From Branchiostoma floridae (lineage: Eukaryota > Chordata > Leptocardii > Amphioxiformes > Branchiostomatidae): a stretch of DNA of 64,000 nt. This document shows, piece by piece, positions 236 through 64,000 of this stretch. The notes beneath the pieces were generated by a model, which was given only the letters and a program-made list of their open reading frames with translations, made no database searches and was not told where the DNA came from. Positions within the stretch are counted from its first letter, which is position 1, and each line of letters opens with the position of its first letter. Where the stretch lies: positions 927,888 through 991,887 of the forward strand of contig NC_049984.1 in NCBI RefSeq assembly GCF_000003815.2, given 5' to 3'. Both the position numbers and the translations under genes were made by a program.

Positions 236-3200
236 CTGTAACAACCAATAGAAATCAGATACGCCAAAAATCAGTTACTCAAGCAACTGGATACGTTTCT
301 GGAAAACGTCAGACGTTTCAGACAGCCATCCGGCGTCTTTCGTCATTGACACTGATCTGCAGCTGACGAAAGTGCCACTGACGACAGACGCTGAATCTGT
401 CTGAAATGTCTGTCCAAAATCATATCCACTTGTTTGAGTAACTGCTTTTCAGCGTATCGTATTGCCTAGTTATGTAACCTTCATTAACGCAAGAGAAATC
501 AGTTTTCAGATCTCTGTAGAAACCAATAGAAGTCAGCTTCCCATGCCCCAGTCCTGTATTCAGGCAGGACTTACCTCGGCACAGCTAGCTCAGGACTTAC
601 CCCGGCACAGCTAGCTCAGGACTTACCCCGGCACAGCTAGCTCAGGACTTACCCCGGCACAGCTAGCTCAGGACTTACCCCGGCACAGCTAACTCAGGAC
701 TTACCCCGGCATAGCTAGCTCAGGACTTACCCCGGCACAGCTAGCTCAGGACTTACCCCGGCACAGCTAGCTCATGACTTACCCCGGCACTGCTAGCTCA
801 GGACTTACCCCGGCACAGCTAGCTCAGGACTTACCCCGGCACAGCTAGCTCAGGACTTACCCCGGCACAGCTAGCTCATGACTTACCCCGGCACAGCTAG
901 CTCAGGACTTACCCCGGCACAGCTAGCTCAGGACTTACCCCGGCACAGCTAGCTCAGGACTTACCCCGGCACAGCTAGCTCAGGAAGGCTGCCCCTGCCT
1001 TTCCGCCATGTTATTGTAGCCTTGGGATTGCTGTCCACCATACAGCCGAGACTGGCAGGCTCACCCTCTCTCACGTGGACGGACGTCCTGGGAACCTGCA
1101 CCTGCGGGGGGTCTACAGGGCAGAGACAGCTCCGTCAGCAGAGTAAACACCTGCAGGGGCCTACAGGGCAGAGACAGCGCCTGCAGCAGAGTAAAAACCT
1201 GCAGGGGTCTACAGGGCAGAGACAGCGCCGTCAGCAGAATGAAGACCTGGGCGGGTCTACAGGGCAGAGACAGCGCCGTCAGCAGAGTAAACACCTGCGG
1301 GGGTCTACAGGGCAGAGACAGCTCAGTCAGCAGAGTAAACACTTGGGGGGAGGGGTTACAGGGCAGAGACAGCTCCGTCAGCAGAGTAAACACTTGGGGG
1401 GAGGGGTTACAGGGCAGAGACAGCTTAGTCAGCAGAGTAAACACTTGGGAGGGAGGGGTTACAGGGCAGAGACAGCTCAGTCAGCAGAGTAAACACTTGG
1501 GAGGGAGGGGTTACAGGGCAGAGACAGCTCAGTCAGCAGAGTAAACACCAGCAGAATCAAACATGATAAAGTTGGTGGTCGACGAGAGGTTTAGTCGTCA
1601 AGAAATACTTTCTTCAAAACATGCTCACATTTTACCCTCATGATCCTAGACGACGCTGCCGGCCCAGCGAGTTGTGGGAAGCCCTGGTCGGCCAGGCAGG
1701 TGAAGTTGGCGCCGTGGTCCCATTTCGTCAGGCGGGGGACGAACAGCTCCAGACTTCTGTCGTTACCCGCGGAATCGCTTCCGGACCTGCAGATGCAAGA
1801 GCCACAGTTCACATTGAGAACACGAGTTTTCTGTACACCAATGTGATGGTCATCATCTTACAAGTCTGCAAACAACTAGAAGGAAAGATAGGTGTGAAGT
1901 TTTGACCTGAAGGGACCTTTAAGGTAAAGTTTTGACTAAAAATCTACGTGTAAAGTAAGATCAAGTAACGTCGATGAAGGTTAGACATCCATGTAATAAG
2001 ATATGCCAAAAAGCAGTTACTCAAACAAATGGGAAACGGTCAGACGTTTCAAATGCTATCCAACAGTTTTCGTCAGTTTTCGAAAATTGTCTGACAATAC
2101 AACGTTTCCTGTTGGACATCTAAAATTGTCTTCATTCATAGTTAGTGCATAAAAGACCTGTTTCTTCCAGGTAACTTCGGTGTCACTGACGAAAACTGCT
2201 GGATAGCAGTTAAAGCGTCTGACCGTTTCCCCAAATCATATCCAGTTGTTTGAGTAACTGCTTTTTGGCATACGTGTAAAGTAACGTTGAAGAGGTTCAT
2301 CAGTCACGTATGCATACAGTTATCAACAGTTTTCTTCAAGCAATGACTGTTTTGTAAAGGTACAGTACATACCTCCCATAGTACAGTACAGTACATAGTC
2401 TCAGTTCTCGTTAGAGAACACGAGACTAGGTCAGGCTTGCGTGGATCATCTGCCCCCTCCTCTCGCGAGAACTGAGACTAGGCAGTTCCCCCGTAACGAA
2501 GATGTGCTGGTAGACGTCGAAAATTTGGGAGGTATGTACTCACTCACTGTACCTTTACAAAACAGTCATTGATTGAAGAAAATTGTTGTAAGTGTAAAGT
2601 AACGTTTTTGACCAGAGGGAACTTTTTTCACCTGAAGAGACGTGTTCCGTTTCTCCAGGTGAGTCGCGGGGGCGGATGTCCACCTGAGGCTCGGCAGGTG
2701 AGAGACAGCGGTTCTCCTGCCGTGGCCGGCAGCTCCCCACCCGTGATGGTCGGCGGTCCCGACAGCGGTACTGCAAAGGGAAGCTTTTGTTACACCTCAT
2801 CTCTCATTCTGATTGGACAAATGTTATCATTCACCACCTGAGATTATGATTCTTTTCTCCTGATTGGGTCGCGTCGTCTATTATAATAAATGACCGTTGG
2901 AGATTCATGATTCACCCCTTGTGAGGTTCTGGCGTCATAACCAATACAAAATGGGGACTTCTGATTAGTCGTCTAGCTAGTAGTATATGATGATGATAAC
3001 GGAGAGAAATATCTACCAATGACGGTAAGGGTGGCGTCGTCAGCAACTGTTGTTAGCTATGTAGCAGCTGTAACTACCTGCTGCCTGCCTGCCGGCCCGG
3101 TGGGTCTCCAGGTTTATAATTGCGTATGATTATGATGATTACGTATGATTATGATATTTACCAATGACGGTAAGGGTGGCGTCGTCAGCAGCTGTTGCGG

Positions 3201-6200
3201 GGTCCGTGTAGCAGCTGTAGCGCCCCCCGTCCCGGCTGTCGGCCCGGCGGATCTCCAGGTTGAACTGTCGCGCGGCGGGGTCCCCCGTGATGCGGTGCCG
3301 CGGGAAGGACCGCATCACCGTCCGGCCGTACGAGATGACCTTGTCTCCGGGCGGACCCTGCCAGATCACGATCTCCTCGCTCCCCAGCGCGCTGAAGGCG
3401 CACCCTAGCGTCACGCTGCGGCCCTGCAGCACCACAGACTCCCCGGGACGCACGCTGTAGGTCGAACCGTCTGGTAGAGACACGCAATAAGACTAGAAAT
3501 GTAACATTTGCCAGCAAATACATAATGGTCTGGCCTAGCAAACTACTGCTCTGTTTATTCTTACTCAAACACATTAATATATATGGTGACCAGCCCCTCT
3601 ACTTATGTCCTGCCACTTGCTACATTATGTAACCGAACACTACCACTACATTTTCCAGTAGCCATGCCAGCAGTAGTCATTGGGACAAAGTAACTGGGCA
3701 AAAAGTATGAAGGTTGACATGAAAAAACAATGTTTGATGCTATATATACATCATGACATATTCTCAAACACTTTGTCAGTTATGTAGTAGGTTGGCATAT
3801 ATAAGGTATAAGGCTAAAATAAATTATCCATAAAATGTAATACTATCAATTCTCAACACAAAAATCGGACTTATCCAAATCTTCGACTGATCGATTTCAG
3901 TCTTTGTGAAGGAATGAACAATCCACTGCTTCTGTGACGTCAGGTTATATGGATAGCACACGTGACTCCGTGAGCGGTTTGCTTGTTTGTTTGTTTGTTT
4001 GTTTGAACCTTTATTTATTCATGAAAGCTCATATCGGCCTGCAGGCCGCTTTTCACTGAGGTCATGAGGACAGAGGCAAGGGTCAGACAAAGTATATAAC
4101 AGAGATACAGTTACATCGATTAGAGTCCTTATAATCCTATAAGTCTATATACACAATTTTTACATACATACAAAGAAAGAAACTGCTATACATGATTCAA
4201 GTCCGTTCATTTGGCCGTTCCCATTACTTTAAGAGTCTCTTAAAGGAAGCCAGTAGATCATAAGTTGCGGGAAATTCTATGTCGCCCTCCGTCTCTGTTT
4301 ATAAAAGGTTATAAAGCTCTGATGTAGATGGCCTCTAGCAAAAACGTCTGGTTCTGTATCCATGATTCTCACTTGTCCAATGTGACCGAGTGTCCAGGTG
4401 ACTCTATATGTTGAGAAACGTCTGAAAATGTTGAACGCACCCATCCTTGACTGTAGTTGAGCAGTCGAACATCTGGGCACGTCCAGTTTTTGTGTTCGAA
4501 ATTATAGTTCATCTTTATCCAGAATGACTTCTACCAACACAGAGGAACTTTCAAGTTAAGAATAAGTCGGCAATATACTCATGTTCTTCTGATTAATAGA
4601 ATCCCAGCGATGCAACTTCCCATGTAAGGGAAATTATTCCAACTTTTCTGAAAAACTATTTAAAATAGACGTGATTGCCTTTTGGTATTAAAAAAATTAT
4701 TGCAATCAGCAAGTGATTTACAATTAGCCTTCTGGCAACTAACGAGGCACTTTTTTGATTACTACGTGTCACACATCAGAAGACTCCGTTTTCTGTCAGT
4801 CCAAGATCGTAATCATCATGATTTTTAGTCATTGTCAGATCTAAACATGGGTTTTACACATACATCAGATATCGATTTTATGTCTGTTATTTCCTTGTAA
4901 GGGTTTCTACATCATTTTTTGTGTATGTAATTCTGTACAAGACACGCCTGTACCCTGTATAAAGGAAACAGAATCTATCTATCTATATCTATATATATGT
5001 ATATAAACACTTGATTTTAACGAGCGGACACATGTCATGACAACTTATTAGTAGGCAACAGGCTCCAGTTGTCGTCAGTATTTTCCCGAAGATTTTTGCT
5101 CCAATATTCCTCCCACGTCCAGTGTGCTGACCGGAACAACATGCAGCAATTCACCAACCCGATTAATACACATGCAGGTCACTCCGTGTCACTGGAACAG
5201 TCAGAACGGGATTATGCGCTCGTGTTCAGTACCAGGCTCATGAGCATTCAACTGGATCTTAAGATATAATCTGGGCAACTCAGACGGGATTTTTCCACAT
5301 GACACAGAGGTTAGCTATGTATTGCAATGTCTGCAATTTCAAAATACCTGAATCTAAAGCATGTCAACACCAGGCTCGCCAAACTACATCAAACTACATC
5401 AAACTACGCATGTCAGCTTAGAGATACTGTCGCTTCACGGGGTTTGTGGCATTTCACAGAATATCAAAACGTCACATACAGCACGGATAATGGTATTGAA
5501 ATTGGTATGTGTTTGACGCGCTAAGCACTACTTATCTTTGTGCCGCATAGCTTTTGGCCGGCTGCACGTTCGGTGCGTGTGCGCCCAACAGCGCGGTGTT
5601 TGGTACCGCGGTGCGTGTGCGCCCAACAGCGCGATGTTTGGTACCGCGGTGCGTGTGCGCACAACAGCGCGATGTTTGGTACCGCGGTGCATGTGCGCTC
5701 AACAACGCGATGTTTGGTACCGCGGTGCGTGTGCGCCCAGCAGCGCGATGTTTGGTACCGCGGTGCTTGTGCTCAGACAAAGCAGCGCGATGTTTGGTAC
5801 CGCGGTGCGTGTGCACCCGCACCGCGATGTTTGGTACCGCGGTGCGTGTGCGCCCAGCAGTGCGATGTTTGGTACCGCGGTGCGTGTGCACCCGTACCCG
5901 CAGCGCGATGTTTGGTACCGCGGGGCGTGTGCACCCGTACCCGCAGCGCGATGTTTGGTACCGCGGTGCGTGTGCACCCGTACCCGCAGCGCGATGTTTG
6001 GTACCGCGGTGCGTGTGCTTAAAGCAGCGCGATGTTTGGTACCGCGGTGCGTGTGCTTAAAGCAGCGCGATGTTTGGTACCGCGGTGCGTGTGCGCCCAA
6101 CAGCGCGATGTTTGGTACCGCGGTGCGTGTGCGCCCAGCAGCGCGATGTTTGGTACCGCGGTGCTTGTGCTCAAAGCAGCGCGATGTTTGGTACCGCGGT

Positions 6201-44692: not shown

Positions 44693-44697
44693 ATAAA
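44692..44697 (+). promoter_or_regulatory. Candidate polyadenylation signal
   Basis: AATAAA immediately overlaps the stop of the unrecognised open frame. Confidence 0.3.
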
Positions 44698-44759
44698 GTT
44701 AAAGTCAACACAAGTAAGCTAAGATTTTTGCGTTAACGCTTAGATTTATTTTAAAAACA

Positions 44760-45200
44760 TTCCTTTGGGGGTTTCACCCAAGTAGCATCCGATAATTATA
44801 AGTAAACCTTGCTTAGTACTTAGTAACCGTTTGTAGGAACCGACCATGAACTATATTTCATGTACACCCCAGGGTGGGGGCATTAAACCTTAATTATATC
44901 ATATCATATCATATCATATCATATCATATCATATCACATCATATCATATCATATCATACTATATCATACTATATCATATATCACGTCACATGACATCACA
45001 TTATATTACATTATACTATATCATATATATATATATAAACACGGATCACCTCTGTAGTCAAAGTTACATGTATCGTTAATACTGTTGTATACTGTATACT
45101 ATTGTATAACGTATATTGTAATGTTACCAGGGCTAGCCCTTGATAATAGCCTTAGGCTAGTTGGCTAGCCCTGGCTGTATTTCTCATGATTATACAGCCG
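44760..45200. other. LINE-like tails and (ATATC)n microsatellite
   Basis: A segment ending GGTGGGGGCATTAAACCTTA is followed by an (ATATC)n run at about 44895-44985, like a non-LTR element tail. A second block ends GGCTAGCCCTGGCTGTATTT and AATAAATCAAATC at 45130-45215. The subsegment ACACGGATCACCTCTGTAGT near 45041 recurs at 47681. Confidence 0.5.
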
Positions 45201-45218
45201 AATAAATCAAATCAAAAA

Positions 45219-47633
45219 TCAAGTAGGGTGTGTCGACCCCATTATTCTGAGATTCAAGCTAAGGGATCAAGTTTCGGCCCGGCAAACTTTATATCATTAG
45301 AAAGGTCTCTTGGTACTAAATTGAAAGATGCAAACCGCATTTTGATTGGATGTTTTGTTGTCGAGATATTCCTGTTCAATTGCGCCCTAAGCCTAACCGC
45401 AAGCCTTAACCGTAGGCGAGAAGTAGGGTGTGTCGACCCCATTAATCTGAGATTCAAGCTAAGGGATCAAGTTTCGGCCCGGCAAACTTTATATCATTAG
45501 AAAGGTCTCTTGGTACTAAATTGAAAGATGCAAACCGCATTTTGATTGGATGTTTTGTTGTCGAGATATTCCTGTTCAATTGCGCCCTAAGCCTAACCGC
45601 AAGCCTTAACCGTAGGCGAGAAGTAGGGTGTGTCGACCCCATTATTCTGAGATTCAAGCTAAGGGATCAAGTTTCGGCCCGGCAAACTTTATATCATTAG
45701 AAAGGTCTCTTGGTACTGAATTGAAAGATGCAAACCGCATTTTGATTGGATGTTTTGTTGTCGAGATATTCCTGTTCAATTGCGCCCTAAGCCTAACCGC
45801 AAGCCTTAACCGTAGGCGAGAAGTAGGGTGTGTCGACCCCATTATTCTGAGATTCAAGCTAAGGGATCAAGTTTCGGCCCGGCAAACTTTATATCATTAG
45901 AAAGGTCTCTTGGTACTGAATTGAAAGATGCAAACCGCATTTTGATTGGATGTTTTGTTGTCGAGATATTCCTGTTCAATTGCGCCCTTAGCCTAACCGC
46001 AAGCCTTAACCGTAGGCGAGAAGTAGGGTGTGTCGACCCCTTTATTCTGAGATTCAAGCTAAGGGATCAAGTTCCGGCCCGGCAAACTTTATATCATTAG
46101 AAAGGTCTCTTGGTACTGAATTGAAAGATGCAAACCGCATTTTGATTGGATGTTTTGTTGTCGAGATATTCCTGTTCAATTGCGCCCTTAGCCTAACCGC
46201 AAGCCTTAACCGTAGGCGAGAAGTAGGGTGTGTCGACCCCATTATTCTGAGATTCAAGCTAAGGGATCAAGTTTCGGCCCGGCAAACTTTATATCATTAG
46301 AAAGGTCTCTTGGTACTGAATTGAAATGATGCCANNNNNNNNNNNNNNNNNNNNNNNNNNNNNNNNNNNNNNNNNNNNNNNNNNNNNNNNNNNNNNNNNN
46401 NNNNNNNNNNNNNNNNNNNNNNNNNNNNNNNNNNNNNNNNNNNNNNNNNNNNNNNNNNNNNNNNNNNNNNNNNNNNNNNNNNNNNNNNNNNNNNNNNNNN
46501 NNNNNNNNNNNNNNNNNNNNNNNNNNNNNNNNNNNNNNNNNNNNNNNNNNNNNNNNNNNNNNNNNNNNNNNNNNNNNNNNNNNNNNNNNNNNNNNNNNNN
46601 NNNNNNNNNNNNNNNNNNNNNNNNNNNNNNNTAGGGTGTGTCGACCCCATTATTCTGAGATTCAAGCTAAGGGATCAAGTTTCGGCCCGGCAAACTTTAT
46701 ATCATTAGAAAGGTCTCTTGGTACTGAATTGAAAGATGCAAACCGCATTTTGATTGGATGTTTTGTTGTCGAGATATTCCTGTTCAATTGCGCCCTAAGC
46801 CTAACCGCAAGCCTTAACCGTAGGCGAGAAGTAGGGTGTGTCGACCCCATTATTCTGAGATTCAAGCTAAGGGATCAAGTTTCGGCCCGGCAAACTTTAT
46901 ATCATTAGAAAGGTCTCTTGGTACTGAATTGAAAGATGCAAACCGCATTTTGATTGGATGTTTTGTTGTCGAGATATTCCTGTTCAATTGCGCCCTAAGC
47001 CTAACCGCAAGCCTTAACCGTAGGCGAGAAGTAGGGTGTGTCGACCCCATTATTCTGAGATTCAAGCTAAGGGATCAAGTTTCGGCCCGGCAAACTTTAT
47101 ATCATTAGAAAGGTCTCTTGGTACTGAATTGAAAGATGCAAACCGCATTTTGATTGGATGTTTTGTTGTCGAGATATTCCTGTTCAATTGCGCCCTAAGC
47201 CTAACCGCAAGTCTTAACCGTAGGCGAGAAGTAGGGTGTGTCGACCCCATTTTTCTGAGATTCAAGCTAAGGGATCAAGTTTCGGCCCGGCAAACTTTAT
47301 ATCATTAGAAAGGTCTCTTCGTACTAAATTGAAAGATGCAAACCGCATCTTGATTGGATGTTTTGTTGTCGAGATATTCCTGTTCAATTGCGCCCTAAGC
47401 CTAACCGCAAGCCTTAACCGTAGGCGAGAAGTAGGGTGTGTCGACCCCATTATTCTGAGATTCATTCTAAGGGATCAAGTTTCGGCCCGGCAAACTTTAT
47501 ATCATTAGAAAGGTCTCTTGGTACTGAATTGAAAGATGCAAACCGCATTTTGATTGGATGTTTTGTTGTCGAGATATTCCTGTTCAATTGCGCCCTAAGC
47601 CTAACCGCAAGCCTTAACCGTAGGCGAGAAGTA
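45219..47633. repeat. 200-bp satellite array, inverted orientation, part 1
   Basis: About twelve monomers of the same satellite run on the minus strand. They are nearly uniform and belong to the subtype that forms the end of the plus-oriented array (GCCGAAACTTGATCC, GGGCGCAATTGAACAGG, GGGGTCGACACACC at about 42.75-43.57 kb). Confidence 0.95.
46335..46631. other. Assembly gap
   Basis: A run of 297 N. Confidence 0.99.
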
Positions 47634-47724
47634 ATCATAGACTGACATTCTAGATCGTACGACTGCTAGTCAAGCTGAAACACGGATCACCTCTGTAGTC
47701 AAAGTTACATGTATCGTTAATACT
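47634..47724. other. Short non-satellite segment within the inverted array
   Basis: It interrupts the array and contains ACACGGATCACCTCTGTAGT up to a gap. The same sequence lies in the spacer at about 45041, so part of the spacer is present twice. Confidence 0.6.
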
Positions 47725-47915
47725 NNNNNNNNNNNNNNNNNNNNNNNNNNNNNNNNNNNNNNNNNNNNNNNNNNNNNNNNNNNNNNNNNNNNNNNNNNNN
47801 NNNNNNNNNNNNNNNNNNNNNNNNNNNNNNNNNNNNNNNNNNNNNNNNNNNNNNNNNNNNNNNNNNNNNNNNNNNNNNNNNNNNNNNNNNNNNNNNNNNN
47901 NNNNNNNNNNNNNNN
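47725..47915. other. Assembly gap
   Basis: A run of 191 N. Confidence 0.99.
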
Positions 47916-48599
47916 CGGCCCGGCAAACTTTAGATCATTAGAAAGTTCTCTTGGTACTGAATTGAAAGATGCAATCCGCATTCTGATTGGATGTTTGCTT
48001 GTCGAGATACTCCTGTTCAAGTGCGCCCGAAGCCTTACCGCAAGCCTTCACCGTAGGCGAGAAGTAGGGTGTGTCGACCCCAGTATTCTGAGATTCAAGC
48101 TAAGGGATCAAGTTTCGGCCCGGCAAACTTTATATCATTAGAAAGGTCTCTTGGTACTGAATTGAAAGATGCAAACCGCATTTTGATTGGATGTTTTGTT
48201 GTCGAGATATTCCTGTTCAATTGCGCCCTAAGCCTAACCGCAAGCCTTAACCGTAGGCGAGAAGTAGGGTGTGTCGACCCCATTATTCTGAGATTCAAGC
48301 TAAGGGATCAAGTTTCGGCCCGGCAAACTTTATATCATTAGAAAGGTCTCTTGGTACTGAATTGAAAGATGCAAACCGCATTTTGATTGGATGTTTTGTT
48401 GTCGAGATATTCCTGTTCAATTGCGCCCTAAGCCTAACCGCAAGCCTTAACCGTAGGCGAGAAGTAGGGTGTGTCGACCCCATTATTCTGAGATTCAAGC
48501 TAAGGGATCAAGTTTCGGCCCGGCAAACTTTATATCATTAGAAAGGTCTCTTGGTACTGAATTGAAAGATGCAAACCGCATTTTGATTGGATTTGTTGT
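47916..48599. repeat. 200-bp satellite array, inverted orientation, part 2
   Basis: About 3.4 monomers in minus orientation. The first has several substitutions compared with the uniform later ones. Confidence 0.93.
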
Positions 48600-49779: not shown

Positions 49780-51080
49780 ACCTGATGAAACTATTTTCGG
49801 ATGTCTGTACAATATTCAGAAGAAAAAGGACTGGACTGTCAACTAGCACCTTCAGGTGATTCTGTATGTAGTATCTCATGATATCTAACAGCATGCAACA
49901 ATGAATACACAAAATACTCCAATGTAATAAAACAATAGCCTTTATTCAAGATGGTCCAGTGCAAAAGTGCACAGTGTCTCCTAATTCTATATTGTGCAAA
50001 AGAGCTGTGCAAAAATATATACATTCCTAGGTCCTCACACCATGATTTCATTGCAATGATTTACCTATTGCATGGATCCTTTATACAAATATTACTGTGT
50101 ACATTCTTAAAATTGCACCTCTCATTGCAAAATGCACATTGACCAAAATTTCAGTTGTAGAAAAATAGCTGGACCAATAATTTCCCTTAAAAGTACATAT
50201 TATATTGGGTGGTCCATTGAGTACAATGTTACACCCCTGTACTGCACATGGAACAGTCCGATGACGTAAGAAATGCATGCCCAGATTTCTACACCATCAA
50301 TGTCCCTTAATGTCACAATACCAACTATATAACAAATTTGTGCGGGGGATTCAAAAATTTCTTATAATTTCCATCTTTCAAATTATGTACACTCTTACCA
50401 AACCATACAGATTTCATATCTACAGCACTACCTACTACCTAAATATCTATTGTGGAATAAAAAGTTTATATCAGTACTAAAAGACAAAAACAGAACATTA
50501 AAATGAGTAAAAAAAACGGACACAAATCAAAATGTCACAAAGTCAAAGTAAAATTGATACAAAATCCTTTTCATACATGAATATATTTGTGTATGAAACA
50601 TACGTGGGAATGTTGCACTGCATAGTATCACATGTCTGGCTTCAACATTGCCACACAGCATTCTGGAACTGGCTTATACAAGTGTAAAATACTGTCAAAC
50701 TGAAACTGCATAGCTGATTGCTTAGAAAGTACATTACCCTTCAGTCTAGTTGTCTATTTGATGATGAATTTGTGCCTTGAAGCTCAAAGTTGCCAAACAA
50801 ATTTTTTTTGGAATGGGGTTGTTTAAAAAAATCAAACTGAAGCTAGATACCCGGGTCTCAAATCAAGCTGCCTGTTAGTGTTACAGAGAAAAGTTTGCTT
50901 GGCAGGATTTGGTGTTTATTACATATCCTGGAAGATACAAGTCCCAGGGAGTGTTGGGTCATTCCTTCTTCATCCCAACATCAGCATTTTGAGTTTTCAT
51001 ACAACAGACGAATCTTTCTACACAGCAGTTGCAATGGTTGAAAACTTCAAACTTGGCAGCTCTCTTGGTTAGGTGGCACA
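49780..51080. other. AT-rich intergenic stretch downstream of the coiled-coil gene
   Basis: I see no exon or repeat of note. Short open frames on both strands lack coding character. Confidence 0.4.
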
Positions 51081-51083
51081 TTT

Positions 51084-51089
51084 TTTATT
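51084..51089 (-). promoter_or_regulatory. Candidate polyadenylation signal of the coiled-coil gene
   Basis: AATAAA on the minus strand, about 115 bp after the stop codon at 51203-51205. Confidence 0.45.
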
Positions 51090-51202
51090 AATTTCCGTTG
51101 TCATATTCTAATTTAGCATTTGCCATGGTAACGTGTCCATGTTCCAGTTGGAACATGGACACATGGAAACATGTTTATTTGGCAGTTGCCATGGTGCCGT
51201 GT

Positions 51203-54200
51203 TTACTTGGCGAGCATGGCCTCCTGTTTCTTGGTGACCTCTGCCTCGAGGTGCGCGATGCGCTTGGTGATGTTCTCCCTGCGGAGCTGCAGGGTGGCCA
51301 GCTGCTGCTGGGACTGCTCCAGGTGGGAGGGGGGCGACGTGCCTGGGGAGAATATACAGCCTGGTCAGAACTGAATAGCATTTTTAACAATGAATAAAAA
51401 CTAATAACGACAGGACTTGGAGAGGAATTATAGTCAGCTGGTCAGAACTGAAGAGACTGGATGCATCAACAACAACAGAACCTGGGGAGAAAATACTGGT
51501 GGGTCAGGATGGAATACTCTGTTACAAGTTACAATTAATTGTGACACCAACTTGGATAAAATTCCATCATACCATCCCAGGACACAGTGATTACAAATCA
51601 AAGAAACGAAAATTTCCTGATATAAAAAAAAGTTTAGAAACTGTTTAATAACTTGTATATGTGAATTGAATGATTGTACAACAGGACTAGGCAAACAGAA
51701 GAGAGAGCATACCAGACATGGCCCTGTCGATGCCACTGCTAAGCTCCTGCTCAGACTTCACCACCTGGGTCAGCTCTGCTGTCAGGTGGTCCAGCTTGCC
51801 CTGCAGGTCGCTGACCTGTGACCTGAGGAGGTCCCTGTGGCTGCGGAGGGCTGCAGGGGCTGCGGGCGGCTTGGCGGGTCTGTGGGGGAGAATGATTGTC
51901 AAATAAACAAACAAACAAACAAACAAATAACGCGTACCACAAGCTGCAGCTGCTTCAAACATTATACCTTTTTGGCTAAAGTAATGATTTTATTTATTTC
52001 CATTTTTCTTCGCATGGGTCAGGCTCTCTGTGAGATTGTGCACTGCTTTACAAACTTACAAACTATACAACAATATATACAAGGCAAGAACAGATTTGTA
52101 CATCAAATACCAAGGTTGTAGTTGTTATACATGTCTGGTCGCAATTATGATAAGGTTTCCAGATAAAGTGCCTTAGACAAATTCCTGTTAAACTCTTGCA
52201 AGGCAAATCAGTACCTCACAATCTGAAGATGCTTTTTCAAAGTATAACCGTTACGTAAGTCTCAAGATCACTACAAGCACCCCTCACCTGTCCTGTGATC
52301 CTTGTGGCTCCTTCTTGCCCCGGAGTTGTCTCAGCTTGGCCGCGATGATGTCTGTAGCCGGTCCCGACCGGTTCTGACTGGTCAACGCGCCGCGTAGCTG
52401 GGAGTTCCCAGTGAAGTCCTGGTAGTTTGCCATCCGCTCCGACACATGCTGCAAGGATATAGGGAAACAGATGTAGATGGTTTGCAGATGTATTGAATGG
52501 TTGTAACACTGAGGAGAAGCTACATTCTGTAAATACAGGCTGGATGGAGATGTGTTAAGAGGTGGGTTCCTGCAAATGTCATGGAAATGAAAATAAGTCA
52601 TATCAGATTTCAGCTTACAGGAAGGTGCACTACCATTGCTTGTAGCAAAAAAGGCAAACGGATTTAAATGCAATGAATGAGTTATTATTCTGTCTTGCCA
52701 TCAATAAACAGGCTTATATGAGTATGTGTGCATATGTCGTCCATCAAAAGAAGACTAGTAGCACAGCTGGACAATTTTTAAATTTCTGGCAACCACAGTT
52801 TTAGGGAATAAACTATAGTAAGATAATAGTTTTCCTATGTTTCCCTCTTGACCTCTTGCTACATTGCTTCTTAAAGAGTCTAAGAAACTAGCTGTAGTAC
52901 ATGTAGTATGTAGTATCCACTCACTCACTCACTCACTCACTCACTCCGGCGAGCTCGAGTATCCAGTATTTGATTATACTGACACGGGTGGGCAGCAGTT
53001 GTCTAGTATTTACACCGCATTTCTAAGTAGCTCTGTCCCACGGGACACACTTTTTCCAACATTCCCTAGGCTACCACAGAACCACAGAAATAATTTGGTT
53101 CAGCCTCACCTGTGAGGAGAACTCAGCCTCGACCGGCGCCGTGACCTTCGTGTTGATGAGTTCGCTCACGACATGCCCACGCTTCTCCGACGTCGTGCTG
53201 TGCCGGAAGGCCGCCTCCAGCGCAGTCCTGCCATTGGCCGGCCGCCCACCAATCAGGGCTGAGCTCGTGTTGGTGGAGCGGGAACGGGCGAAGAACATGT
53301 CCTGGCAACACAGCTTGATGGCCTGGGGAGATACAGTTATTTCACATTTCCCTTTTGTAACACATTATAAACTTTAAGATTAAGATAATAACTTGCAAGT
53401 TTATCTGTTTTGATAAAAGTCATCATGAAGATGGTCTTGAACTGCAATTTGCATTTTTTGTACCACCAGCCATTAGATTACCTTAAGTTAAGCTACTCAG
53501 AATTCAAAGAAATCTTAGTGCAATTATTATTTTTTATTAAAACACCATCACAACAACAAATGACAGAACAAAGATGTAACAACATGGAAAAAATGCTGTT
53601 CATAAATTGCAAGCTGTAAAACTTTTTGCCAACTACCTTATCTGAAATATTTGACATAAATTACAGATGGTCAATGTGAACCCAGACTCGGTAACTACAG
53701 GAAGAGCTAACCTTGTAGAACTCCCGCAGGAAGTAGGGGTTGTTGTCATCCGCCAGGTCGTTGACCTTGATGTGTGCCAGGCAGTGGAGTAGAACCACCA
53801 CAAACTCTCCCACTGACTCCATACGCTCCTGAAAATCAAGAGTTTATGATAAAGACTCTTTCAGTTGTAGACACAGATGAAACATTAAAGGGGTTTACAG
53901 GCCTGTCTGTGTCAACAGCCTACAAGGTTACACCTTCACAATTTTCTGAAACCCAATACCTCACAACAGAAACAATCTCTTTGTGCTGAGATTTGTAACG
54001 TTTTATGGTGATATCAAATAGTATAGAGATTTGATCCTATAGCTATTGTCACACCTCTTCATTCCTTCAATCTTCAACCCTTCAATGGAGAACAAATTTT
54101 GTCAGAGGCAAATCATGTAGCAATGCTTTTTTAGGACAATACTGTCAATAGGAAGTTGGGCTACATCAGTAAACATACATCAATTATGAGTGAACATTAA

Positions 54201-57200
54201 GGACAGATTGGAGGGTGTGTCCAAATCAGTTGTAGCTGACTGTGCACATTTGTACACTAGATAATCATCGTCTCCCACCTTCCTGATGAAGAGGATCTTC
54301 TTGGCGCTCTGGTACAGGAACGAGTGGCGGAACGCGTTCCTCTCGTAGTCGTTGGGCGGCAGGTTGGACGCAAGCAGCAGGGTGACCTCAGGCGACCCAA
54401 GATGGCGGCTGAGCAGCTGCGTGATAAAGACGCCGAAGCGGTACACGACAAAGTGACTGGGTGTCAGGTCGTTGATGTCGACGGCCATCAGGTCACCGGA
54501 GCACAGCCACTGGGCGTCCTTAATGTCCAGGTACGGCCGGTCGGTCTTCGCACCTGGGGATGGGGGGTAGGGAGGGTAGGACATGAGAATCTTCTCTTAA
54601 GCAGTAACTCTGGTTTCTTAACAGGCTCTTTTATGGTATAAAATCGTATTTCTCTTACATTCAAGGCAGTACATGCAAAACCATATTCCATGTTGTTGTG
54701 TTGTGAAGAGACCTTCTCTCTATACACATTGTACACAATGTTAGCTTTTATCATAAGCCCTTTTCACAATGTGACCAGGTGTTTGCAAGGTGAGACTTAC
54801 CAATAATGTTGCAGCACCCTAATATGCAAATCAGCTTAACCAACACATGCTGACAATCCTTTCCTCAAGAGCCCTAGGTACTTTCTATGCTTCCTGCCAG
54901 ATATCTGCACCATGAGACTTACCAATGACATTGCCACCAGGCAGTGAGTTCTTCAGCATGTCCTCTATCTCAGTGATGTGTTGGAACAGCGGAGACTTCA
55001 CCAACAGGTCCATGAAGTCCTGCTCCTGGGGTGACCCGGCCGGGAACGGCAGCTTCAGGTCACCCGCGGGCACCAGGGGGCCTGATGGGATACCGGGGGC
55101 TGACCTCTGACCCTCCTCGTCAAGGGCGTTTGGTGTTGAAGGTCGCAGCATCTGGTTGTTTGTTCTCTCGAACTCCTTTGCACCTATGGGGGGTGGTAAT
55201 TGATGTTATTCACTCTGAATGACTGAAACTTCAATAGGAGCTGCTTCCAGAACATGAGACACACGTCAGGTTAAGGCTCGTGGGCCACAAGTCAAGTGAG
55301 AAGTAAGACTACCACACTGCTCCTGTCCATTGGTCATCCTCTCGTCTACTCCTCATAGTCTTCCGTTCTGTTCTCTGCATTGTTGTCTTTTGTCCCTCGT
55401 CTTCACCAACACCACCCTTCCTTCCTTTTAACTCCATTTCCCCTCCCATTCTTTTCACACTGATACTATCCAACAGTTGTTGGCTCTGCTCCCCACTTTA
55501 CCACACCCTTTGTTCCCCTCCATCCCTTTCTCCTTACTTCCCTTCCCTTCTCTCCCCAAGCCCCCCAGTTACAGCTTTGACACTGATCCTGTTCAGCAGT
55601 TCATTGGTTCCCCTCTCCTCTCGCTCCTCCCTATGCATCACCCTAACCCAGATCTCTGCTCGTATGGGCCTCCCCTCCCCACAGCTCCCATGGGCCTCCC
55701 CTCCCCACAGCTCCCATGGGCCTCCCCTCCCCACAGCTCCCATGGGCCTCCCCTCCCCACAGCTCCCATGGGCCTCCCCTCCCCACAGCTCCCATGGGCC
55801 TCCCCTCCCCACAGCACCCATGGGCCTCCCCTCCCCACAGCACCCATGGGCCTCCCCTCCCCACAGTTCCCATGGGCCTCCCGTCCCCTCCCCACAGCTC
55901 CCATGGGCCTCCCCTCCCTACAGCTCCCATGGGCCTCCCCTCCCCACAGCTCCCATGGGCCTCCCCTCCCCACAGCTCCCATGGGCCTCCCCTCCCTACA
56001 GCTCCCATGGGCCTCCATCCCCACAGCTCTCATGGGCCTCCCCTCCCCATAGCTCCCACGGGCCTCCCTCCCCACAGCTCCCATGGGCCTCCCCTCCCCA
56101 CAGCTCACAGCTCCACCCCTTTATTAGTACCTTCCATGCTGATCCTGTTCAGCTGCTCGTTGGCTCTCCTCTCCTCCTCGTACTCCTCCTTCTTCCCCTC
56201 CTCCTCGATCATGGCCAGCTGGGCCTTCCGCTTCTTCTCACGACGGGCCTCCAGCTTCGCCTGAGGTGGGAGAAATAAGACGTCTCAGAGCAGGCACAAG
56301 GAGTGATGTCATCTCACAGAATAAGACATACTGTAAATGTATTTAAGTTTGCGGGAATTTAATTTCGCAGTAGCGGGAAAAGGACTTTTCGCGGTGGTTT
56401 TAATTTCGCAGTAGCACCATGCACTGTAGTCTTTTACTGCTATGGAAAAATGTTCGTGGTGGTTTTAAGTTCGTGATGAAGTGGCCACCGCAAAAACTGC
56501 GAACATTAAACCACTCTGAAAGTTTCTGCATTTACAGTAATTGACAAGATGTTCTGACTAGGAATAAACTGAATGCTTTTCAGGTGCCTCATAGTAATGT
56601 CAGATGTTATAAGTACTGTTGTCTTGCATAAGGATAGGATATGAATGTTTACATGTTTGCTGAAAACAAGCATAATGTTGGTAGTATTTTCAGACCTTTG
56701 TTCCAAATTTCAACTGTTTTTTTTCAATTTCAAACTTTATGGGATCATGTTGGAAGCTCCAAACATCCTTTTCACAGACGATATTTATTTCAACATGCAT
56801 AAGAACAGATTTTGCCCAAAAGTTTCCCCTGGACCCGCCCCCTTGAGAGCGGCCTTCAGAATGCTCCTCATGCTCTCGCAGAAGTTTCTAGAACAAACAA
56901 ACAAACAAACAAACAAACAAACCTTGAGAGCGGCCTTGCTGCGCTCCTGGTCCTTTTGCATGGCCTCGTTGAGCTTCAGCATGTTCTCCTCATGTTCTCG
57001 CAGAAGTTTCTGTAACAAGCAACAATCAGTCAGTCAACAGCACTTATTACACACACAGTCACTCTGTACATTTTGTACCTTCTAGAGTATCTAACACCAA
57101 AAGTTTGGTATTATTGCTATTATTATTAGTCTTCTTTCTACGATGGTACGGTGTCGATGGTGCAAATCCTTCCGTCTAGAGTTGGTGATACTCTACAAAT

Positions 57201-60200
57201 CACCCGGACTCCAGGAAGAATACTAACATATCAGTCACTAATAAAGATCTGTATCAAACCAAACCAAACCTGCAAAGTATCACCAGCACCCTACTGTACA
57301 AACCAGTGCACTCAGTCTGACGAGTTAAACCTGCTCGACATAAAAGTTGTACATGTAAATACTGGCTAATGTCTGCTGCTTTGTTACACCTCGTTTAGTG
57401 TCCAACAGTCCTGGAAAGAAATGGTTTGTGGTTAAAATTATGCACTTCCTGCTTCTACAAGTGAACATAAAAGCTCTGATTAACACTACAGTAACTGCAG
57501 TATGAACACAACAGGTTTCCTAGAAATAAGGGTTATACTGTTGTTCTAACTACAATATAAACAGTGCTGTTGTTTATATGTTGTGACTCCTATACAACTG
57601 GGTAATGCCAGCTTATTATGCGAAAGTAGCCAAGCGACATACTCTTAGACTAGTCTTTGCACCTGTGGGAAAAAAACACCAGGCTGAAACCTTGTTATCA
57701 TAGTGAAGCAGCCCTATTATACTTTTCCCCTACATCTCTGTGAAAAAAATCATGTTTCTACCCTGATGCGGTCGAGTTACAAAATGCTCTAGTTGTTACA
57801 TCTCTGTGAAAAACACCAGGCTGAAACTGAGTTACTACCCTGATTCAGCCCTACTATACTTTATTTTCTCTACATCTCTGTGAAAAACACCAGGCTGAAA
57901 CCAACTTATTACGCTGAAGCAGCTGAGCTACAAAATGCTCTAGTTATTACATCTGTGTGAAAACATTTTTTCTACATTTCTGTGAAGAGACACCCAGCCA
58001 AAACCGAGTTATTACGCTGAAGCAGCCCAGGCTCATGAGAGCGTCCAGTCGTGCCCTCAGCATGGGTCTCGCCGGGCCCTGCGCCGTCCCCATGGCCTGG
58101 GTCAACGACCTGTACTCCGCTAGAATCCTCTGGAGCAGAAACAATCATTAAGTTTGCACAGAATTCTGTTATTAACCCCACCCTACACAGGATGACACAC
58201 TGCAGCATCTGAAACAGATGTGTATTTACTTGATATGCAACATGAAGGGCTCGAAATAATTTTTCTGCATACCTGCACTGGTGCAGGTAACATTGAAAAT
58301 TACCTGCACCAGACAAACTTTACCTGCAACACTCTTTTTAAGAAGTATGGATTATACTAAAATTGTTCAGGAACCATTGCTTTTTTTCTTTTATACTTAA
58401 TAGGTGGTACAATCCATATACACCTACACCATTGGACATTTATGTACATGGACCAGTGCAGGTTAGGTGCAGGTAGACACTAAAAATACCTGCACAGCTC
58501 CAATTTTACCTGCACTAACCTGCATATGCAGGTGGTATTTCCAGCCCTGAACATGTGTTTCAACAAACTCTAAATCAAGTTAGCCCTGCATTATGTTCCT
58601 GCGTGTCATGTAGTTTCTGTCCAGTTTTGTATGTTGCTACGGACCACAGCAGGAACAGTAGCTGAAATGTACATGTATATTGTTAACTAAAGGTAATTCT
58701 GAATAAACTCAAACTCATCAATTTTTTTTTATTCAGAAAAAGGAAAAAAAAATTCATTGTTACAGGAACTTGTACACTCTGGTTTGGAAGTGAGAAAAAC
58801 TATAAACTTGATAATAAAATCAATTATAGTAAGTGATTTTCTGATATCGTATAGAATACTGGATACTGAAAATGGCTGTCTTAATTTACTTGATTGTCAC
58901 TATTAGAATCTTATCAAACCATTTCTTAGTATCTTTCATGTCTTCAAGTGTCTGTCTCACCTCCTTCTCATCCTCGGTGACGTTCATCTGCTCGACCTCC
59001 TTCCTCTTCTGCTTCTCTCTCTCCTCCAGCTGAGCCTTCGCTCTCTTCTCCCGGTCCGCCAGCCTCTCCTGCTCTCTCTTCTCATCCCTCTTTCTCTCCT
59101 CCTCAATCTCCTGCTCAAGGGCACTGAAGGGGAGGATAGGTGTTTAATACACTCAGGTCTAACCCCAATGGCTAACCCTAACACTCATCCCTCTTTCTCT
59201 CCTCCTCTATCTCCTGTTCCAGAGCACTGAAGGGGAAAGGTCAAGATAGGTATTTAATACTCTTAGGTCTAACCCTAACCCTAGCCCTAACCCCAAGCCT
59301 AACCCTTAGATGTAACCCTTTCAACCCTAACTCCTAACCCTAACCTTTACCCTAACACTAACGATAACCCCCAACTCTCCTGCTCAAGGGCGCAGTAGGG
59401 AACAGGTGAAGCTACGTCTTAAAAAAGCAGGTCAAGTGTCTTGAAGAAATCTTCTAGTATCACTCTACCATAATGTGAAAACTTCAAATTGTGCTGAAAG
59501 AGCTCAAAATTTGTACTGTAGAGAATCAACACTATCCTAATGTTTGTACATGGGAACGAAGAAAAACTTTGTGAAACAAACTCTTGACATACAAAGAGAA
59601 ATTAGAAGCCGGATTTGAAGAACAGAGCCTCATCTTTCTCCCCCAGAGATGCACAGATACCACTCACCTCACTTGGTCCCTGAGTTTCTTCTTCCTCTCC
59701 TCCTCCTTCCTCCTCTTCTCCTCCTTGATCTTCTCCATCTGCTGGTTCAGTTCCTTCATCTTCGTCTCACGGAAGTCTCTCGCCGCTTCCGCCGCCTTCT
59801 CTGCGTCCTGGGCGTACTCCTCGATAAGGGCAGCCTGTGGGGGGGAGGGGGGTGGTCCAGTTTTACAGGGGGTATTTTTCTGTAGCACTGCTATAGCAAC
59901 TGGCACCTTTTACCAATTCTGAATCACCTTAGATACCTTACATCCAAAATGCAAGTATTCATCATCAGTATGGCAGCCAGTGTTACAGGTGGTCTTATAC
60001 TGATGCAGTTCTAGCAAATAACAACTTTTAGTAATTCTTATATCACAGAAGATACCTGACATCCAAAGTGCAAGCAAATGTAAGGTAGAAACATGTGACG
60101 TTGCAACTTCTTTTTAACAATGTTGTTGATAGTCTGGATAAGCCTAGGTTATGAGTGCTCTAGGTGTTATTGTAGTCCTAGGTATCAATGAATAGTGTGA

Positions 60201-63200
60201 ACGGGACAGTCTGCATGCAGAGATCAGCTCCCCATATAGACCCCACCCCTGCCTGCCCCCATACAGACCCCTGAAGTGCCTAGCCCCAACCATAACCCCC
60301 TACAGACCCCCAGGTTGCTGATCCCTGCCTGCAGACTGACCTGTTCAGGTGAGAGGTTCTTCATAGCGTCCGCCAGCTCCTTCAGCTGTTTCTCCCGCAG
60401 CTCAAGACGCGCGTGGGCGTGGTCGATCTGCAGAGATGGCAGCACGTCCTTCTCAGCCTCCGCGAGCAGCGCCGCCGTCCGCTTGTCAAAGTCTGCCATC
60501 TGTTTCTGTGTAAGACGAGAGAAAAGGAAGTTTAAGGTAAGAAGATGTAAAAATTCCCCAAAGGATTTCTTTGGTATGTGCTCAACATGATCACACAGTT
60601 CTACAGGGCAGTCGGCAGCTTGTCGTAGTCTGACAGCAGTTTCTGTGTACGACACGAGAAAAGGATTACTTTTGTGTGTGCTGAACATGATCGACATATA
60701 TAATGTCCATCAGGGAACAGTAGAAATTATTGAGGGTGGCTGACAGCTTGTGGAAGATTGCAAGCTGTTTCTGGGTGTGATATGAGACAAGAAGGATTGC
60801 ATGTACCAATAAATAACATCATATACAACAGTACTCCATGTACCTTGTGTGCCTGCTGCAGCTCTGCCTTCCTCTTGGCGAGTTCTGGAGCCGTCAGGGA
60901 GCCGGCGTTGGTCACCAACTCAAGCAGGTCCTGCGGACAACAACAGGACGATTAACGTTTATTTCATCTTGTTGAAATACATGTCTTGTTACACATTTCA
61001 GTATCATCCATCTGCACGCAAAACAACCCCGCACACTTACAGAGAAGAGTAGGGACGATCTGTTGTGGTGGGGTATAACAAGCTTGGGTAAAAATGGCTA
61101 AGATTCAATGTACTATCAGCTAACGAAAAAGCGTTTGTTTCATCTGAAGCATTACCCTTTAGTTTGACATCCATTGATTTGGCTCTAAAGTAATTGCGCT
61201 GATACTGCTCCTATGTACATGTACGTCATCAACTTAAGGCCAGCAGGATGCTTAACTCAGACACAACAGCTCCCCCTACCTGCTCCTGTTGGGACACCAG
61301 CCTGTCCCTCTCCTGTTGCCTCCTCTCTGCTGCCTGTGCTTGTGCCGCAGCCTTCGCTGTTTCTACATATATCATCAATTACACACCTAGCCTGACACAA
61401 CAGCTCCCCCTACCTGCTCCTGTTGGGACACCAGCCTGTCCCTCTCCTGTTGCCTCCTCTCTGCTGCCTGTGCTTGTGCCGCAGCCTTCGCTGTTTCTAC
61501 ATATATCATCAATTACACACCTAGCCTGACACAACAGCTCCCCCTACCTGCTCCTGTTGGGACACCAGCCTGTCCCTCTCCTGTTGCCTCCTCTCTGCTG
61601 CCTGTGCTCGCGCCGCGGCCTTTGCCGCCTCCGCTTCCCGGCGCTGCTGCTCGTCCAGCCGGACCGTCTCCTTCAGGTGGCGCTGCTTCATCACGCGGTA
61701 GATGATGTTCTCCGCCTTCTTACCATCCTGACCTTGGATGGAGTCCACCAAGGTCGACTTCTCGTGGTCCAGGAGCTGTGGGGAGTCAAGTAGGTCATCA
61801 TTATGCAGTTCTTTGACCTTCGTTCACTTTGAAAGTACATGAAAATTTAGATAGCAACATATCATGGAAACAGATCCCTGGGAGGAAATGTTGAATATCA
61901 AATCCCCTGAAACTTTGTGTACCAGGACCCCTCTGTAAGACCCATCTAAGACCCCCCTCCGTACCTGCTGAGTTGCCAGGTTCTCCGTCCTGTTGCTGTT
62001 GCATCAGCACCCGAGCCATCTCTGCCTTGTGCTTCAGTCCCTGTATAACCCCCCTGTATACCCCCTGTAAGACCCCCCTGTGAGACTCCCCTGTAAGACC
62101 CCCCTCCGTACCTGCTGAGTTGCCAGGTTCTCCCTGTCCTGTTGCTGCTGCATCAGCACCTGAGCCATCTCAGCCTCGTGCTTCTCGGCCCCATGTATAC
62201 CCCCTGTAAGACCCCCCTGTAAGACCCCCCTGTAAGAATCCCCCTCCGTACCTGCTGAGTAGCCAGGTTCTCCCTGTCCTGTTGTTGCTGCATCAGCACC
62301 TGAGCCATCTCTGCCTCGTGCTTCTCGGCCAGCTGAGCCGCCTTCTGACGCTTCCTTTCCTCCAGCTTCTTTGCCAGTGTGTTCTTCTGTCGCTCTTTCT
62401 CCTGAGGAGACATCATAGGAATCTTGAGACTTATACAATTGCATACTCTAAGTCTCCTATAGTTTCCATCTAACTTTTCAGTCTTCATACATTTTGTTAG
62501 ACTGGTATCCAATATTCCTAAACTAGCTTTCTGCAGAATAAAGTCACTGGAACAAGTCTTCATTTAAATGTTTGGTCTTTAATTCATTGACAATTTGAAT
62601 ATGTCTTACTAATTAGTCTATGAAGATGTGCAAGTCAACTTTGTTTTCCTGCACAAATTAATGGTTATAAAGCCATTTAAGTCACCTGGACTATACGCGT
62701 CACCAGATTAACTGTACAAGCGCTTGGTCATCTCAGCTGGCACACCAAGGAGACAAACTGTAAACGTGGTTACAATATACCAACTGGAAGCTGGAGATTT
62801 ACAACCCAGATAACATCACCTGAGAACCTGAGCTCATTTTAAATTGGAGAGCCAGTATGCATGGGCAGAAAGCTTGCAGACTTCAGAAACACACACACAC
62901 ACAAAAAAATGGAAATTTCTGCTTCACCACAAAGTAAGGCTGTTCTGGACTGAAAAGCAAACACCTCATTTAAGCCAGGCAGGTAATTTCATGACTACAG
63001 GAGCTTGTTGTAGCGAAGCCACCCTGCCTACAGCACCATGTCTACTGTCCAACCTGCCACATGTCTGCTAACAGTCCGAGCAGACCAGACGCCTCTCCGT
63101 GGGGCGGCTTGTACAGGGAGGGGGTTAGTGTTCATTTCAAACAACATCAGGCAAGAAAACTCAATCGTAATGAATGCAACGCACAGACACGCTCTGATTT

Positions 63201-63647
63201 GATCCGTGGCACAAACTTCATGGTGGAATAAATGAAGGTGTTATCCGCTAATTCCATCATTTGCTTTCTATCAGCACTTTGGCAATTCTCAAGTGGAAAT
63301 GACCCAAGAAGGAGAGGACTGACCAAAACATTCTTTGTAAAAAAATAACTTTGTGTATGGAAGTAGCTAATAAATCTATATAGTGTCAACCTCTATTTGA
63401 GCATTGATTTGGCAAAAGATTGAAAATTTCCTCCTTGTCTTTGTACATCACTGTAATAATCTACTATCATCTTGTTCATTGTTGGTCACAAGAAGAAAGT
63501 ACTGACCTTGTCCATGTTCTCTGTGACCTTCTCCATCTCCTGTTGGTGAGCAGCCAGCATCTTTTTCACCTGGTCCTCTGTTAGGTTCTGTTCTTTCCTC
63601 TTCAGGACCAGGTCTCGCTCAAACTGGGCCTTCTGCTGGTCCAGCAG
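51203..63647 (-). CDS. Large coiled-coil protein with C-terminal conserved region (5' end beyond the window)
   Basis: Seventeen exons join with consistent phase, 2766 nt in all (921 aa plus stop), on the minus strand: 63507-63647, 62252-62401, 61548-61775, 60844-60930, 60341-60505, 59668-59834, 58961-59123, 58016-58129, 56923-57009, 56131-56260, 54923-55183, 54279-54553, 53712-53828, 53110-53322, 52288-52448, 51713-51879 and 51203-51342. Acceptors are AG and donors GT throughout; the weakest donor is GTAATA at exon 8. Residues 1 to about 550 are highly charged heptad-like coiled coil, for example KEERKRQ-type runs and EKHEAEMAQVLMQQQQDREN. A compact region follows (see separate entry). The last 100 residues return to coiled coil (LEQSQQQLATLQLRRENITK). 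No membrane segment was seen in the visible part. A structural or ciliary/cytoskeletal role is a guess from the architecture; I do not recognise the family. Many introns hold partial copies of the neighbouring exon. Confidence 0.82.
51897..51928. repeat. (CAAA)n microsatellite beside exon 16
   Basis: AAATAAACAAACAAACAAAC-type run in the intron just upstream of the exon ending at 51879. Similar runs sit next to exons 9 and 1 of this gene. Confidence 0.9.
52919..52946. repeat. (CACT)n microsatellite
   Basis: Seven CACT units in an intron of the coiled-coil gene. Confidence 0.95.
53110..55183 (-). CDS. Compact region of the coiled-coil protein (four exons)
   Basis: Exons 54923-55183, 54279-54553, 53712-53828 and 53110-53322 encode about 270 residues with little coiled-coil character. 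They include DFMDLLVKSPLFQHITEIED, DAQWLCSGDLMAVDINDLTP, FVVYRFGVFITQLLSRHLG, LASNLPPNDYERNAFRHSFL, VGEFVVVLLHCLAHIKVNDL and NPYFLREFYKAIKLCCQDMF. The alternation of hydrophobic helices and the well-behaved exon phases suggest a folded helical domain. This is the best part for homology searching. I cannot name it. Confidence 0.75.
55660..56110. repeat. 27-bp intronic minisatellite, G-rich on the transcript strand
   Basis: About 16 units of CACAGCTCCCATGGGCCTCC plus CCTCCCC lie in the intron between exons 10 and 11 of the coiled-coil gene, ending about 20 bp from exon 10. As 27 is a multiple of three, frames stay open on both strands; these are not proteins. The transcribed strand carries GGGGAGGGGAGG in each unit, so the intron RNA could form G-quadruplexes. 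Confidence 0.92.
56329..56539. mobile_element. MITE with TACTGTAAATG ends
   Basis: It starts TACTGTAAATG and ends CATTTACAGTA. The interior has AATTTCGCAGTAGC and GCGGTGGTTTTAA blocks and a mirrored CCGCAAAAACTGCGAACATT. It is about 210 bp, non-coding, and lies in an intron of the coiled-coil gene. Confidence 0.8.
56838..56922 (-). pseudogene. Truncated copy of exon 9 of the coiled-coil gene plus (CAAA)n
   Basis: The minus strand carries both exon ends, AAACTTCTGCGAGAGCATGAGG and GGCCGCTCTCAAG, but with the middle third deleted and the frame shifted. It lies immediately downstream of the real exon at 56923-57009, separated by a (CAAA)n run. Confidence 0.8.
57660..58015. repeat. Imperfect tandem repeat including copies of the exon 8 donor region
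   Basis: Four or five copies carry ACATCTCTGTGAAAAACACC, AGGCTGAAACC and then GTTATTACGCTGAAGCAGC. The last copy runs into exon 8 (58016-58129), so its GTAATAA donor and last exon bases are the source or member of the repeat. Confidence 0.75.
59188..59230 (-). pseudogene. Partial copy of the 5' end of exon 7 of the coiled-coil gene
   Basis: CCCTTCAGTGCTCTGGAACA followed by GGAGATAGAGGAGGAGAGAA (minus strand) repeats the acceptor and first codons of exon 58961-59123. The copy sits just upstream of the real exon and has no matching donor. A TAACCC-rich stretch follows at 59270-59370. Confidence 0.7.
60506..60790. repeat. Degenerate copies of the exon 5 acceptor region
   Basis: Segments like GTCTGACAGCAGTTTCTGTG followed by TACGACACGAGAAAAGGA occur at about 60628 and again, more diverged, at about 60738. 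They echo the true exon 5 start and upstream intron (GTCTGCCATCTGTTTCTGTG at about 60491). Confidence 0.6.
61261..61547. repeat. 134-bp tandem duplication of the 3' end of exon 3 and its donor
   Basis: ACACAACAGCTCCCCCTACC starts at 61261, 61395 and 61529. The third copy contains the donor and last codons of the real exon 61548-61775. The two extra copies keep an open frame (QERDRLVSQQEQ) and a GTAGGG donor, but the only upstream AG would shift frame, so they are probably not spliced in. Confidence 0.85.
61965..62251. repeat. 140-147-bp duplication of the 3' end of exon 2 and its donor
   Basis: Copies starting at 61965 and 62112 repeat the start of the real exon (62252), including its donor GTACGG, the EMAQVLMQQQQDREN-coding part and the TGTAAGACCCCCCTG intron sequence. 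They lack the exon's upstream part and acceptor. Confidence 0.85.
62402..63506. other. Intron of the coiled-coil gene; nothing recognised
   Basis: A 1.1-kb intron between the first two visible exons. A short (CA)n run lies near 62890. No other exon or element was seen. Confidence 0.5.
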
Positions 63648-63964
63648 CTGTAAACATAAACAAACAAACAAACAAACAAACAGGTAAACAAACAGCACCA
63701 GCACCAGGTCCCGCTCAAACTGGGCCTTCTGTTGGTCCAGCAGCTGTAAATATAAACAAACAAACAGGTAAACAAATGGCACCAGCATCTGTTTCACCTG
63801 GTCCTCCGTCAGGTTCTGTTCCTTCCTCTTCAGCACCAGGTCCCGCTCAAACTGGGCCTTCTGCTGGTCCAGCAGCTGTAAATATAAACAAACAAACAAA
63901 CAGGTAAACAAACAGCACCAGCACCAGGTCCCGCTCAAACTGGGCCTTCTGCTGGTCCAGCAGC
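63648..63964 (-). repeat. Three further copies of the first visible exon of the coiled-coil gene
   Basis: After the full exon 63507-63647 (LLDQQKAQFERDLVLKRKEQ onward), copies of its 5' end with acceptor lie at about 63698-63743, 63798-63875 and 63918-63963, separated by CAAACAAA runs. The 63798-63875 copy is 78 bp, phase 0-0, with acceptor TTTACAG and possible donor CAG followed by GTGAAAC, so it could be a cassette exon. The others end quickly. Confidence 0.8.
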
Positions 63965-64000
63965 TGTAAATATAAACAAACAAACAAACAGGTAAACAAA

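Follow-up and report, generated by a model that had tools for sequence, protein, structure and literature searches.

Why should the ends of coding exons, splice sites included, recur as partial tandem copies in the neighbouring introns of a gene? The question is raised by a 64,000-nucleotide stretch of Branchiostoma floridae DNA (assembly GCF_000003815.2, contig NC_049984.1, positions 927,888 to 991,887; hereafter the window), in which a gene encoding a coiled-coil-like protein lies near one end and an immunoglobulin (Ig)-like gene near the other. The material analysed is the DNA sequence of one haplotype, and the window contains 10 gap runs. We find copies of exon ends beside eight of the 17 in-window exons of the coiled-coil gene, at seven of them with the splice site included, and we consider them probable members of a class of repeats known in amphioxus as ‘mirages’.

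The coiled-coil gene occupies the minus strand from 63647 to 51204. Its 17 exons (E1–E17) have GT and AG at every internal splice site and compatible phases across all 16 introns, with no copy used. The boundaries were picked by hand among listed candidates with the coordinates of the original prediction in view, and the model is thus not blind; it gives the same exon count as that prediction, whose coordinates are the left ends of exons. One of the 18 candidate exons, 61281-61775, was discarded because it has stops in every frame. The 5′ end of the gene lies past the window edge. By eye, E1–E10 encode a charged, coiled-coil-like chain and E11–E17 a different C-terminal part. Neither of two pieces of the protein matched Pfam above the curated cut-off, and the C-terminal piece, the only one compared with the PDB, found no match there.

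The copies, their splice sites and their positions are read directly from the sequence. Self-comparison of 51001-64000 (self-blast, same strand, distance below 2000) returned 24 rows with scores of at least 36, the lowest being 42. The null, 40 first-order Markov sequences modelled on this region, peaked at 36 in a single sequence, with nothing at 38 or above. Seven exons had been predicted to have partial copies, on donor and acceptor sides alike. All seven do have a neighbouring direct copy that reaches the splice site and exceeds the Markov null, the weakest best scores being 59 (E5) and 60 (E9). The copies are on the acceptor side of E1, E5, E7 and E9 and on the donor side of E2, E3 and E8. 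An eighth exon, E10, had been overlooked; its 3′ end has an older copy, 84% identical over 51 aligned columns, with the E10 splice site outside the alignment. None of the 24 rows has both copies inside an exon.

Extra copies number three at E1, two each at E2, E3 and E5, one plus a degraded one at E7, about three at E8, and one with an internal deletion at E9 (for E8 and E9 the counting was partly by eye). In the alignments, originals counted, splice dinucleotides are kept in 4 of 4 cases at E1, 3 of 3 at each of E2, E3 and E5, and 2 of 3 at E7, and older copies have lost splice sites or carry indels. Spacings across both genes are 26-147 bp, the exceptions being the copy of E10, at a distance of 556 bp, and a 228-bp compound unit at E1. 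The E1 acceptors stand at about 63647, 63743, 63875 and 63963 (spacings 96, 132 and 88), and this array reaches the window end; at E8 the donor-like GTAATAA occurs at 58015, 57950 and 57912. The shortened E9 copy retains its acceptor AG but, by eye, has lost the donor GT and 30-odd internal bases, which rules it out as a complete working extra exon. Coordinates are collected in the table, together with two intron-only families that run counter to a junction location.

Table. Repeat families of the coiled-coil and Ig-like genes, in window coordinates (TRF, Tandem Repeats Finder).
Feature	Coordinates	Strand	Evidence
F1, copies at the E1 acceptor (exon 63507-63647)	63554..64000	-	self-blast score 356, alignment
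F2, copies at the E2 donor (exon 62252-62401), spaced by 140 and 147	61926..62330	-	score 370, alignment
F3, copies at the E3 donor (exon 61548-61775), three donors with period 134	61260..61625	-	TRF, score 444
F4, two old copies at the E5 acceptor (exon 60341-60505)	60467..60844	-	score 59, alignment
F5, copy at the E7 acceptor (exon 58961-59123)	59081..59291	-	score 116, alignment
F6, old copies at the E8 donor (exon 58016-58129)	57650..58026	-	scores 115 and 76
F7, E9 (56923-57009) and shortened copy at about 56843-56892	56840..57022	-	score 60
F8, copy of E10 3′ end (55583-55630), separated from E10 (56131-56260) by a 26-bp minisatellite (55658-56109)	55583..56189	-	score 55, TRF
G1, intron-only duplication, spacing 120	59857..60074	-	score 73
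G2, intron-only repeat pair, spacing 186	58280..58514	-	score 42
Ig gene, 26-bp array, 16 copies, donor of exon 965-1112	565..985	-	TRF; 16 GGTAAGT motifs
Ig gene, acceptor of exon 965-1112, array of about nine copies of about 48 bp	1100..1552	-	TRF
Ig gene, copy at the donor of exon 3162-3470, 141 bp away, GT kept	2983..3261	-	score 112

The Ig-like gene had also been predicted to be affected, and three families there bear this out. Six exons lie within 120-8776 (Ig identity by eye), with copy families at three of 11 splice sites. One exon, 965-1112, is flanked by arrays on both sides, the acceptor array holding 5 GCCCTGTAG plus 4 GCCCTGTAA motifs. A marginal pair of 28-base segments (231-258 / 509-536, score 41) touches a fourth splice site. 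Two families, at 5571-7202 and 7413-7544, are confined to introns; the former, in the first of the gene's visible introns, is a GC-rich minisatellite with 42 copies of a 38-bp unit (TRF).

The exonic parts of the better-preserved copies are biased in how they differ from their parents. One well-preserved copy each of F1, F2, F3 and F5 has 18 synonymous and 6 nonsynonymous changes relative to its own exon, whereas with a neutrally evolving copy and full constraint on the exon 33-43% of the changes should be synonymous (P 3e-5 to 0.0015, depending on transition bias); the innermost two E3 codons counted may fall outside the homologous stretch. Without F3 the figures are 12 and 1. Three old copies appear neutral-like, with 8 synonymous and 18 nonsynonymous changes, the E8 row among them aligning at 64% only. 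Since the recent copies differ mostly synonymously, the simplest reading is allele-like divergence from today’s neighbouring exon, which suggests that they may have been coding exon ends on other alleles until lately, moved by unequal exchange. In F3, the outer exon part matches at 96% of 70 bases and the outer intron part at 100% of 48, and the inner exon edge has diverged; unequal crossing-over between alleles of different copy number would also fit this. Amphioxus is described as highly polymorphic in the available excerpt of PMC8994340.

Mostly synonymous differences are also what alleles laid in tandem by mistake would show. An assembly artefact of this kind, with pieces of the haplotypes of a very heterozygous diploid set side by side, would sit well with the gap runs in the window, and one globin mirage was apparently misassembled in the draft genome, according to the excerpted text of PMC3087553. 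We nevertheless judge it very unlikely. Arrays of three to sixteen copies with short regular periods cannot be two haplotypes, old copies with lost splice sites or indels are present, and repeats of this kind in PGBD5 were supported by re-sequencing, as far as the excerpt of PMC3902484 goes.

Might the copies instead be in use, regulating splicing or serving as alternative splice sites? Their splice sites are kept, the synonymous bias would be in keeping with use, and either of the two nearest upstream E1 acceptor copies (63647-63875) would lengthen the exon in frame, by 96 or 228 nt, with no stop. Read-through at E1, however, would put hydrophobic intron-derived residues into the coiled coil. 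Use of the next copy’s splice site shifts the frame in E2, E3 and E7 (140, 134 and 103 bp), and those copies therefore form no coding reserve; translation of F2, F3 and F5 copies is a poor alternative because their spacings are not multiples of three, and functional alternative exons from them were rejected on these grounds. Read-through into the E2 and E3 copies meets stops. In addition, mirages appear to leave splicing undisturbed in the portion of PMC3087553 available. Use of the copies thus seems most improbable, and they are most likely without function.

The original prediction went further, taking the pattern to suggest a mechanism that favours exon–intron junctions. Placement was assessed in the coiled-coil gene with ten hand-grouped families, F1–F7 at the seven predicted exons and G1–G3 in introns, and expected counts came from random placement of blocks whose length equals the period; families and periods are partly hand-delimited. 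Under uniform placement, seven of ten families span a junction vs 2.7 expected (p = 0.005; under a stricter margin, 2.6 expected and p = 0.003). The corresponding figures are 3/5 vs 0.33 for the Ig gene (p = 0.002) and 10/15 vs 3.1 for both genes pooled (p = 4e-5), and dropping exon-only placements makes hardly any difference (p = 0.008, 0.002 and 7e-5 for the coiled-coil gene, the Ig gene and the pool). Matching for GC content leaves an excess in each (p = 0.026, 0.009 and 0.0007). Constraint on the parent exon should keep copies that bear exon sequence recognisable for longer; giving such copies double weight, a guessed upper bound and not a measured value, yields p = 0.088, 0.013 and 0.005, and both corrections together yield 0.17, 0.04 and 0.02. 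These p values take no account of the choice of window, which was picked after the pattern had been seen. Extra high-scoring segment pairs were folded into F6 (57650/57789 and 57672/57883, near E8) and F4 (60560/60660, near E5). The E10 copy, whose splice site is uncovered, was left out, as were the Ig-gene pairs 231/509 (junction-touching), 253/1995 and 414/2230 (the latter two more than 1700 bp apart) and short microsatellite rows from TRF.

Within the window, then, the predicted clustering holds against position and against composition, but it weakens considerably once detectability is added to GC matching, most of all in the coiled-coil gene. Junction targeting by the duplication process is only partly supported, and no junction-seeking mechanism has been demonstrated. 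Such a process might act, for instance, where GC-rich, purine-skewed exon ends give rise to R-loops or break sites during transcription. The uniform and GC-matched excesses speak for it, as does the higher purine content of the coding strand in copy-bearing exons (one-sided Mann-Whitney p = 0.005, 8 vs 9 exons, rounded values). The purine bias goes with coiled-coil coding, however, and this comparison, like that of exon position below, was made post hoc with the data already seen; together with the hand delimitation, the selected window and the effect of both corrections, this makes a junction-favouring process unlikely in our view. A bolder version makes splice junctions in this lineage genuine hot spots for duplication in tandem, and unequal allelic exchange a conveyor that constantly delivers coding exon ends, their splice sites functional, to introns. 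We hold it to be distinctly unlikely; if true, it would maintain a standing supply from which new introns and exon boundaries could be made. Ordinary tandem duplication, combined with selection against exon-only events, accounts for most of the junction clustering.

We therefore favour amphioxus-type mirages as the probable explanation, and infer the following steps. Short tandem duplications, here roughly 25-150 bp, would arise by slippage or end-joining repair. Those within exons would be removed because they damage the protein, and those across an exon–intron boundary would be tolerated since splicing can use one intact site and treat the remainder as intron. Existing repeats would then expand and turn over through unequal exchange between diverged alleles, by which coding exon ends would keep entering the intron as silent copies. 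The mirage reading draws support from the 17-exon frame, which holds without the copies, and from the lack of any row with both copies exonic.

Several observations weigh against this reading. Copies hit eight of exons 1-10 and none of the seven exons 11-17, a clustering that simple random duplication does not predict. A modest junction excess persists in some of the corrected tests, as in the pooled value after both corrections. The two nearest E1 copies, having an open frame, may be translated. The remaining copies total 17 synonymous and 18 nonsynonymous changes (F1 1:0 in two copies, F2 3:1, F3 6:5, F4 5:8, F7 2:4), the 6:5 of F3 being the same changes as in its sister copy. The synonymous bias is thus limited to the better-preserved families, within which copies are not independent, and the counts cover few sites in copies chosen after the alignments had been seen.

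Elsewhere in the window, three related plus-strand genes (about 16725-17324, 24068-25554 and 28463-29479) are, by eye, what we take to be KCTD/BTB-like genes; one is apparently intronless and two have one intron at the same place. The two one-intron genes (about 24.1-25.6 and 28.5-29.5 kb) show no junction copies, the single row for 22871-29800 falling elsewhere.

Other repeats are also present. A long inverted repeat at 19420-23817 has outer arms of 409 bp (98%) and 291 bp (99% complementarity), and its inner arms are facing 51-bp minisatellites (array 20369-22861). Strings resembling donors (CAGGTGAGTAAG or CAGGTAAGTAAG) and acceptors (TTATAACAG or TTATAGCAG) occur in many of these units, with no exon evident; the whole looks like a foldback-type element. 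A satellite of about 200-205 bp runs in both orientations through 29819-48599, broken by assembly gaps, and a 157-bp inverted repeat (12482-12638 / 14420-14576, 93% complementary) has an assembly gap between its arms. A further repeat, near 56330-56540, is of a kind suggestive of amphioxus.

Repeats of the kind described here have already been named mirages in amphioxus, in the Adh3, globin, troponin C and PGBD5 genes, as the excerpts of PMC3087553 and PMC3902484 relate, and the present locus therefore adds a rich, clustered further example to a known phenomenon. As in mirages, the repeat unit crosses an exon–intron boundary in seven coiled-coil and three Ig-gene families, donor and acceptor boundaries are both affected, many copies keep AG or GT, and unit length falls within about 10-160 bp, apart from the two exceptions given above. 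New here are the number of affected exons, a test of placement, limited as described above, and a bias towards synonymous change, which offers a testable idea of mirage turnover. Among the literature matches listed for amphioxus, lancelet or Branchiostoma there was no genome-wide mirage survey, and among those listed for minisatellites at splice junctions in any organism there was nothing relevant.

The closest comparisons come from the excerpted reports. In Adh3, as here, splice signals are present in many of the repeats; its units are given as 10-72 bp, and somatic instability is described for them (PMC3087553). The lancelet PGBD5 gene has imperfect tandem repeats of 60 bp and 108 bp over its 5′ and 3′ splice sites, which resemble ours; copy number differs between two genome versions, only one gene and two repeats are concerned, and Adh and troponin C are cited as earlier cases (PMC3902484). 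A potato case, likewise known to us from an excerpt, shares a duplicated block across an intron–exon boundary, which produced a new intron there, none being evident here. The globin mirages, 81-100% identical between units, include both-sided cases and six vs three copies on two haplotypes; splicing is apparently regular, the mechanism is called unclear, and an intron-gain model is proposed in which mirages are a source of new introns (PMC3087553). Those in BflGb6 and BflGb9 have 150-160 bp units on the donor or acceptor side, with homogenised inner and distinct edge copies, much as here (PMC3087553). Whereas the earlier reports, among the matches listed, concern single genes or small families, about half of the in-window exons of one gene are affected here together with a second gene nearby, which suggests that mirages are common enough for a genome-wide test.
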